The notes under the pieces: generated by a model
Databases searched by the model: none
Told to the model about the DNA's origin: nothing
Seen by the model: only the letters and a program-made list of their open reading frames with translations
In this document: one piece after another, positions 12,136-12,868 of the stretch
How the letters are laid out: every line of letters begins with the position of its first letter
How positions within the stretch are numbered: position 1 is the first letter of the stretch
Assembly (NCBI GenBank): GCA_030587405.1
Contig: JAUQZD010000073.1
Location: 1-28,129, forward strand
Source of the DNA: Candidatus Freyrarchaeum guaymasense
GTDB lineage: Archaea > Asgardarchaeota > Jordarchaeia > Jordarchaeales > Freyrarchaeaceae
DNA: 28,129 nt
Direction: 5' to 3'
Made by a program: the position numbers and the translations under genes

Positions 12136-12868
12136 TTATCCTAGGTAAGGTTTGTTCCAGCCGTACTCCCCGACTAAGGGTACAAATGCCACGGCTCCAT
12201 AGTCCTTTTTCCTGACACGGCCCTTCTCGTCTTTCTCCACTAAGACCAATGTTTGACTGTAGTAGAAGCGACCTACCGGTATGACCATGCGTCCACCCCG
12301 CGCAAGCTGGTCAAGTAGAGGCTTGGGAATGTCGGGGCCAGCGGCTGTTACCAAAATAGCATCGTACGGTGCGGCTTCAGGGTGCCCGAGAGTCCCGTCG
12401 CCTAGAATGACCGTGACACGATCCCCGTAACCCGCCCTCTCAAGGTTTTTCCTAGAAAAATCCACTAGTTCCTTCACGCGTTCAATGGTGTACACGTGTC
12501 CCTTCTTACTTGCCTCCTCGGGAGCTACTATTTCGGCGCAAAGAGCTGCATGATAGCCTGATCCTGCTCCAACTTCAAGAACCTTCATGCCTTCACACAG
12601 TTTTAGGAGGTCACACATTAAAACACACATGTCTCGCCTAGAGAGTAAACTCTCTATGTGGCGCGGATATCGTCTGACCCCCTGGTATCGGAAGTGGACG
12701 GTCATCATAAGCGTACTCCTTCAACTCGTCGGGTAGAAACTTCTCTCTTGGAACCTTTAGGAAAGCCTTGATCACCCTTTCATCCCTAACAAAGCCTTCT
12801 ATTTTCAACCGTTCTATAAGCCTCTTCTTCTTTTCAAGAAGTGTTTCCCTCAAAGCCTCCCGCCTCAT
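12136..12868 (-). CDS. pcm: Protein-L-isoaspartate O-methyltransferase, interrupted by a 25-nt BHB intron
   Basis: Repairs isoaspartyl residues by SAM-dependent methylation. Exon 1 (12868-12658) encodes 70 codons plus one base and reads ... DDRPLPIPGGQTISAP. Exon 2 (12632-12136) gives MCVLMCDLLKL, the SAM motif VLEVGAGSGYHAA, and a C-terminus ending WNKPYLG. Read straight through, exon 1 runs into a stop after HREFTL and exon 2 is in another frame. Removing 12633-12657 joins them as SAPHMCVLMCDLL, exactly the conserved PCMT region, to give 235 residues, the normal size. I therefore interpret the gene as intact and spliced rather than as a pseudogene. The ATG at 12868 has no ribosome site, so the transcript may be leaderless. 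Divergent from the DUF371 gene. Confidence 0.88.
12633..12657 (-). other. Predicted 25-nt archaeal BHB mRNA intron in pcm
   Basis: On the minus strand, exon 1 ends with CGCC (12663-12660) and bulge ACA (12659-12657). A 7-bp intron hairpin follows, UAGAGAG / CUCUCUA with loop UUUA (12656-12639). Then comes GGCG (12638-12635), pairing with CGCC, and bulge AGA (12634-12632). This is a 3-nt bulge, 4-bp helix, 3-nt bulge arrangement. Cutting after the second base of each bulge excises 25 nt and forms the codon CAC (His) of SAPHM. The outer exon-exon helix is weak (one G-C pair then mismatches), so it is a relaxed HBh' type. Confidence 0.85.

Follow-up and report, generated by a model that had tools for sequence, protein, structure and literature searches.

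In the window, by which we mean the whole 28,129-nucleotide stretch of DNA analysed here, which comes from a Jordarchaeia-like Asgard archaeon, the pcm gene is interrupted by 25 nt at 12633–12657. These are very probably an mRNA intron, predicted to be cut at a bulge-helix-bulge (BHB) by the tRNA-splicing endonuclease EndA, after which RtcB would join the exons to give a 235-aa Pcm. Sequence data could hardly give stronger support to the reading of the insert as an excised BHB intron. Comparison with relatives indicates that it is not a one-off but belongs to a position-conserved family of putative introns, and that the lineage has others. For Jordarchaeia-type Asgards, we infer a set of mRNA introns that includes those in pcm, cbf5, eL42, selD, and rtcB; the introns in pcm and cbf5 appear to be common to Bathyarchaeia as well.

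The interrupted pcm gene and the fold of its insert

Read without splicing, the first frame of pcm ends after 76 codons and the remainder lies in another frame, in agreement with an earlier note on this DNA that called the gene frameshifted with an in-frame stop. The coordinates, letters, and fold that the note gave for the insert are all as described. It also claimed that canonical cleavage removes 25 nt and restores the frame and the SAPHM motif, and in silico this holds: deleting 12657–12633 leaves 708 nt that encode an uninterrupted 235 aa with SAPHM restored (QTISAPHMCVLMC). The features are listed below.

12136..12868, minus strand: pcm (protein-L-isoaspartate O-methyltransferase), interrupted; ATG start at 12868, stop ends at 12136; Pfam PF01135 over the joined protein
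12658..12868, minus strand: exon 1; ends ...GCG CCA C, that is, Ala-Pro and the first base of a His codon; relatives agree
12633..12657, minus strand: putative 25-nt BHB-type intron, ATAGAGAGTTTACTCTCTAGGCGAG; based on frame repair, fold, and relatives
12136..12632, minus strand: exon 2; begins AC ATG (remainder of the His codon, then Met) and runs to the stop
12660..12663, minus strand: 5' strand of the central helix, CGCC; in exon 1, within the Ala-Pro codons
12657..12659, minus strand: 5' bulge, ACA; predicted cut 12658/12657
12639..12656, minus strand: inner hairpin of 7 bp, TAGAGAG/CTCTCTA, with loop TTTA; from RNAfold and covariation
12635..12638, minus strand: 3' strand of the central helix, GGCG; in the intron
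12632..12634, minus strand: 3' bulge, AGA; predicted cut 12633/12632

By sequence alone, offsets 0 to +3 of the junction all yield SAPHM, and 0 and +1 give the identical molecule; both the BHB rule and comparison with relatives favour offset 0. The Pfam PCMT alignment of the joined protein spans the junction (residues 13–226, 240.6 bits). The gene is flanked by a convergent FEN-1 gene (11056–12123, TIGR03674) and by a divergent ORF (12932–13366) for which an NCBIfam search gave no match.

A frameshift and a stop on plain reading would also fit a decaying pseudogene, or an assembly or sequencing error, but the probability of either seems next to negligible. Both halves of the gene are conserved, with 79% and 77% identity to locus L001 (Candidatus Jordarchaeia archaeon QC4), and in other genomes the same codon carries inserts of other lengths and sequences. 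The database cluster nearest to the window's pcm, P0001 (99% identity over 70% of the query), is a 164-aa fragment drawn from five contigs and four sources, and its first residue is the Met that follows the insert. That differing inserts recur at one codon, and that a cluster of such varied origin begins just after the insert, makes an assembly error very unlikely. Outside pcm, the best matches of the window to proteins of two relatives, G004 and G008, are unbroken in the stretches with a match.

We also note two features of the wider window. Positions 1–28129 are largely collinear with contig C1 of G004 at approximately 792 to 818 kb. At 14556–14654 lies a tRNA-Lys(CTT) of 99 nt, a length that could accommodate an intron, which overlaps the called start of ORF 13371–14597.

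The intron reading predicts a particular fold, in which CGCC of exon 1 pairs with GGCG of the intron as a central helix, 3-nt bulges (ACA and AGA) lie on either side, and a 7-bp hairpin is closed by the loop TTTA. RNAfold returned the same BHB fold for 50 nt around the insert (−15.5 kcal/mol, z −3.01), with none of 200 shuffles as good. The pcm inserts of three relatives gave z-scores of −3.82 (0/200 shuffles), −2.07 (9/200), and −2.52 (2/200). In a 61-nt stretch of L064, the relative with z −3.82, the minimum-energy structure has the hairpin without the central helix, which is present in another folded stretch; the lowest-energy fold of L069 is not a canonical BHB. When a 1.11-Mb contig of one relative was searched in both orientations, only two sites combined an all-GC Watson-Crick central helix with at least seven perfect inner pairs, and the sole site with at least eight was that genome's pcm insert.

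The earlier description of a near-ideal BHB stands for the central helix, bulges, and hairpin and fails for the outer helix on the exon side, which has just 1–3 contiguous bp in all 57 pcm loci compared (the window and the 56 described below). The inner helix has at least 4 bp in 54 of the 57, and the other three (L069, L219, and L224) have fewer than four contiguous inner pairs beside the bulge. The insert therefore lacks a firm outer helix, and we file it as a relaxed BHB. It does not fit the strict motif (hBHBh'), with stable helices on both the intron and exon sides. What defines the relaxed form was found in silico, namely a 4-bp central helix between 3-nt bulges and a cut after the second bulge base that gives the correct junction, and compensatory changes occur, also across the exon-intron border. 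Relaxed BHB forms are described as substrates for some endonucleases (PMC12397907).

Recurrence and covariation of the pcm insert

The terms Jordarchaeia-type class and Asgard phylum refer here to the groups of those ranks that contain G002, the genome in which locus L002 lies (Candidatus Jordarchaeum sp. LHC_1308); Thermoproteota is used for the phylum of L004 (a Thermoproteaceae archaeon) and Halobacteriota, our control, for that of L003 (a Methanoperedenaceae archaeon). These phylum names are our assumption.

Relatives were found by protein searches that are blind to structure. In L001 and L002, both found by a protein-based scan, inserts of 29 and 32 nt split pcm at this codon, and in a protein search all eight genomes available for the Jordarchaeia-type class had pcm split there. 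Each of these eight inserts pairs 4/4 with exon 1 in the BHB register. The earlier note had proposed a BHB intron in pcm and had named relatives with the same frameshift and no BHB fold as evidence against it; such relatives were looked for, and these eight of eight all pair. The alignment of close relatives that it called for gave intron-bearing copies throughout the class (8/8) and intronless copies elsewhere. Across the phylum, 217 of 227 Asgard genomes had some protein match, and G010 and G011 were interrupted too.

These ten relatives and the window were aligned with MAFFT, with no fitting to structure. Across the 11 sequences, 95.4% of cells were paired, compared with 33%–52% in slid-register controls, and nine of 12 pairs showed double changes. 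For four of five measures, none of 500 shuffles reached the observed value; for the remaining one, which counts further pair types, 23 of 500 did. The central helix is paired 4/4 in all 11, and a single double change has turned G-C into A-U. G010 has GCA in place of the exon codon GCG, with Ala kept, and its intron partner has changed from C to T, giving CACC/GGTG, a compensation across the exon-intron border.

For a wider survey, we built a covariance model, R1, from these 11 pcm loci and the 24 exonic nucleotides to either side, so that matches are 69–88 nt long when an intron is present and exactly 48 nt when it is not. Counts were read from tables without weak matches, and the classification covers genomes with an R1 match. 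Among 227 Asgard genomes, 88 were matched, 13 at intron length and 75 without an insert. The bearers are G001–G008, G010, G011, G012, G166 (two loci), and G227, five of which lie outside the Jordarchaeia-type class. Among 398 sampled Thermoproteota genomes, 111 were matched, 42 at intron length and 69 without. In the Halobacteriota control (294 sampled, 145 matched), there were no introns, every match listed being 48 nt. Site, geometry, and covariation thus recur beyond the window in 56 pcm loci from 55 archaeal genomes of two phyla, while intron length and hairpin sequence drift. As a counterweight, most matched Asgards (75/88) and 69 of 111 matched Thermoproteota have no pcm insert.

Base-by-base comparison covered the 57 intron loci, window included, and seven of the 69 intronless Thermoproteota. 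The introns are 21–40 nt long, far too short for the core of a group I or group II ribozyme, and comprise 54 distinct sequences. The central helix is CGCC/GGCG in 46 loci, CACC/GGTG in eight, and CGCC/GGTG in three. It pairs 4/4 in 57 of 57 loci, and the canonical cut restores the frame and His-Met in silico in 57 of 57, although 46 of these were found with R1, a structure model from the other 11 that also positions the exons, so that pairing, exon borders, and His-Met restoration are partly selected for in those 46. For 15 of the 46 (L179–L193), tblastn showed a split or an in-frame insert at this point of pcm. An alignment fitted to the model is biased in favour of the structure. In it, 97.2% of cells are paired and 184 cells are doubly changed against a shuffle mean of 49; the measure of pairs altered at both positions was not above shuffles there (201/500).

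Intron lengths leave a remainder of 1 on division by three in 22 loci, of 2 in 21, and of 0 in 14, and all 14 introns divisible by three would bring a stop at once if retained. Reading from GQT gives 9–45 codons with the intron retained versus 163–177 when spliced. In 24 of the 57 loci, the unspliced codon is not His, and the canonical cut makes it His.

Short frame-breaking hairpin inserts are also typical of translational bypassing, in which the ribosome would stop before the hairpin, hop the insert, and resume at the Met codon while the insert stays in the mRNA. The look of the insert fits this, as does its starting and ending at one spot in relatives, and the left-behind codon and the codon before Met are both His in eight of 57 loci and identical in three. 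In known hopping, the same tRNA re-pairs at take-off and landing; in 49 of 57 loci, however, the two codons differ even as His codons, and in the 24 loci just mentioned the take-off codon would not encode the conserved His. The pairing that is kept links exon 1 with the insert in the BHB register and shows double changes, none of which hopping needs. We consider bypassing very unlikely.

Databases hold many shortened forms of the gene. When L190, a Thermoproteota bearer, was searched with its exon-2 part, a query that may favour fragments, 113 of the 120 clusters listed were 158–168 aa long and lacked the first ~63 residues, and seven were 225 aa. The two short clusters inspected start either with the Met that follows the intron or four residues beyond it. 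Four of the 225-aa clusters (P0210, P0195, P0221, and P0238) run continuously through SAPHM; the family thus also has intronless members, seen as protein rather than DNA. The earlier note had suggested that such introns may be widely missed.

The same records could be read as Pcm being two assembling polypeptides, one of 76 aa and the other of 164 or 190 aa, with the insert as an intergenic spacer: a Met directly follows the insert, and the second ORF is listed alone (P0001, P0047, P0052, and P0058). The break would then fall within the SAPHM motif, however, and the insert has pairs that covary with exon 1 codons. The full-length 225-aa relatives near the Thermoproteota bearer also speak against two polypeptides, which we regard as extremely unlikely.

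Splicing enzymes and other interrupted genes

An excised intron in a relaxed BHB calls for EndA and an exon ligase in the same cell, and both are found in relatives. The EndA family was present in 15 of 15 genomes tested, including 11 of 11 bearers (G001–G008 and G010–G012), and RtcB in 18 of 20 bearers tested, with none found in G002 and G285; both counts concern relatives and not the window's own genome. The five EndA alpha subunits that we read keep the Tyr, His, and Lys, whose roles we presume, with VYEHGPGIDHAP and RKK. The five second subunits read are without the His, which suggests that the EndA of bearers may be of the alpha2-beta2 type. EndA would cut the pcm transcript after the second base of each bulge (12658/12657 and 12633/12632), and RtcB would ligate the exons into the message for the 235-aa Pcm. 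Removal would take place before or during translation, and an unspliced message would yield a truncated 76-aa product.

The gene for RtcB itself appears to be interrupted in G005–G008 (L245, L242, L243, and L244), where a 30-nt insert with an in-frame stop lies inside LPD|AHQGYG. Among 30-nt removals at offsets from −15 to +15, the BHB one alone restores this motif. The central helix pairs 4/4 in three of these loci and 3/4 in G008, with 1, 4, 9, and 4 contiguous inner pairs. The rtcB genes of G003, G010, G012, and G505 match the G004 protein unbroken.

Three further genes are interrupted throughout the Jordarchaeia-type genomes that could be read. An insert of 29–35 nt occurs in cbf5 in eight of eight class genomes (L292–L299), with the central helix 4/4 in all eight and an inner helix of 7–10 bp in seven and of 0 in G005. 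It splits the catalytic Asp codon after the first letter, the same codon and phase as in the known crenarchaeal intron, which Yokobori et al. place in that codon (PMC2738675). The eL42 ribosomal protein gene (L308–L315) is likewise interrupted in eight of eight, by 29–33 nt, with the central helix 4/4 in seven and 3/4 in G002; several removals can restore its motif, and the best BHB was taken by script. In selD (L318–L324), all seven genomes covering the region are interrupted at NDVY/SDVY (NDVY|AIGA, NDVY|AIGG, or SDVY|AKGA), and a BHB was found in G005–G008.

Additional BHB inserts whose removal restores the frame were each seen in one genome, G004 (contig C1). One, of 30 nt, lies in a Ras-like GTPase gene (996247–996276, plus strand), and its central helix includes two G-U pairs; the others lie in a NuoD/FpoD-like subunit gene (549831–549889, minus strand, 59 nt) and a hexapeptide-type protein gene (1035681–1035712, minus strand, 32 nt). 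In joined SelD, Cbf5, and eL42, family models cross the junction above NCBIfam cut-offs. The model also crosses it in the joined NuoD/FpoD-like protein, under the NuoD cut-off (345.7 vs 360), and the domain of the hexapeptide-type protein lies downstream of the junction.

Two scans of G004 bear on how often such sites occur. The first, a blind scan of 1.11 Mb with strict BHB and coding filters, gave 30 candidates. Two of these, pcm and the NuoD/FpoD-like gene, are introns by later evidence, and the remainder were provisionally taken as gene borders. The second gave 127, 19, 5, and 8 hits on four contigs, of which the top 45 rows were inspected by hand. Twelve were joined in silico, and selD, cbf5, eL42, the NuoD/FpoD-like gene, and the hexapeptide-type gene looked real. 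The other seven were set aside as neighbouring genes; among them are an endonuclease V gene behind another gene, an AbrB-PIN pair, and an ABC transporter pair.

Some G004 C1 genes show other kinds of break. In a presumed ATP-grasp-like gene (304500–305600), similarity to the G008 protein jumps between all three frames, as could arise from sequencing errors, decay, or an insert. Two genes that we take to be HdrA-like (439272–441604 and 746744–749250) have several in-frame stops at Cys positions that mimic interruptions and are probably selenocysteine codons. Selenocysteine has been described in Jordarchaeia (PMC9723677). ARAGORN found no tRNA in 15 of 56 G004 pieces.

In the class of G553 (Bathyarchaeia), 121 genomes were sampled for cbf5 and 115 matched. 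Among the matches listed, at least 49 genomes had a match starting at query residue 28–37 (the Asp is residue 36), and at least nine had a match 18–36 nt too long with an in-frame stop. Among 20 loci read, which were the best-scoring and thus mostly unbroken, five were interrupted at the same Asp codon (L334, L335, L346, L347, and L353) and 15 were intact. The central helix pairs 4/4 in four of the five and 3/4 in one.

Distribution, history, and comparison with known introns

The named relatives of L190 are Candidatus Bathyarchaeia and Bathycorpusculaceae, and the remaining Thermoproteota bearers are presumably Bathyarchaeia as well. Of 118 Pcm proteins collected, 10 were duplicates, and the other 108 were placed in a quick tree, in which the intronless rows are part of those known; the tree requires at least three changes of intron state. 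Thermoproteota bearers cluster with the Asgards G011 and G012 (SH-aLRT 88), and the Jordarchaeia-type rows make up a clade with the window (98) that lies among other Asgards. Of the two G166 loci (L195 and L196), the second, L196, falls inside the Thermoproteota bearers, as does the G227 locus (L197), by either transfer or binning error. The history of the pcm intron may be one old gain with losses, or transfers, and the tree does not separate the two.

Some intron sites are common to two phyla and are thus possibly older than the Asgard-TACK split. A wider picture is quite possible, though we stop short of calling it probable: Jordarchaeia-type Asgards and Bathyarchaeia may have a spliceosome-free mRNA splicing system, with position-conserved mini-introns placed where core genes encode invariant motifs (pcm, cbf5, eL42, selD, and rtcB, and in one genome also the Ras-like GTPase and NuoD/FpoD-like subunit genes). 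Some of its sites might predate that split, and through the rtcB intron, splicing capacity might control its own enzyme. With an intron in the gene of the exon ligase, such feedback could be tested directly.

The pcm introns would be a second mRNA BHB intron family, spanning two phyla, and one Asgard lineage shows signs of four more conserved ones (cbf5 included) and of three in a single genome. Gene calling is affected, as most clusters listed for the pcm of one bearer are N-terminally shortened. mRNA splicing also becomes testable in the archaeal phylum regarded as closest to eukaryotes. Asgards and Bathyarchaeia are interrupted at identical sites, which for cbf5 crenarchaea share too, and this raises the question of descent or transfer.

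The kind of intron is already known from cbf5; to the extent searched, the gene, the lineages, the conservation across two phyla, and the number of such introns are new. The earlier note knew of none reported in pcm, and the open-access literature, with preprints and most subscription papers outside it, likewise showed no pcm intron and no BHB coding introns in Asgards or Bathyarchaeia. In 2020, cbf5 was given as the sole other archaeal mRNA BHB intron reported (PMC7714728), and there are unconfirmed predictions in other protein genes, one in a rudivirus (PMC2738675). Introns are described in 92%–95% of tRNA genes of Freyarchaeia (= Jordarchaeia) and Atabeyarchaeia, and the intron passages of that paper concern tRNA genes (PMC11291895). 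In the portions available of PMC9723677, on Jordarchaeia, and PMC11227280, the word "intron" is absent.

Introns in cbf5 pre-mRNA were reportedly described by Watanabe in 2002. Those of Desulfurococcales and Sulfolobales are 16–44 bp long, are cut between bulge residues 2 and 3, have cDNA support in some cases, and are mostly unconventional BHBs of conserved position, lost in particular lineages and missed by annotation (PMC2738675). The same source gives 11–175 nt for archaeal tRNA introns, and against both ranges 25 nt is not very short, as the earlier note had held it to be. The pcm introns resemble those of cbf5 as short BHB-type introns in a protein gene, cut after the second bulge base, mostly unconventional in form, conserved in position, lost in particular lineages, and missed by annotation. 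They differ in the gene and in the lineages, which are Jordarchaeia-type and other Asgards and Bathyarchaeia. They do not lie in the catalytic Asp codon that marks the cbf5 family and are of the same kind but a different family; the eight class genomes have both.

HAC1/XBP1 splicing likewise acts on an mRNA without the spliceosome and leaves the final joining to a tRNA-type ligase, but it is eukaryotic and stress-regulated, with the cut made by Ire1 and without a BHB. The BHB introns of tRNA and rRNA share the recognition geometry of the pcm intron and would share its enzymes, whereas the pcm intron interrupts an mRNA, and the exon strand of its central helix encodes protein. In Haloferax volcanii, the HVO_1309 mRNA is processed by the splicing endonuclease at a BHB in its 5' UTR (PMC7714728). 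The pcm transcript would similarly be an mRNA substrate of this enzyme, with the difference that in pcm it is the coding sequence that is split.
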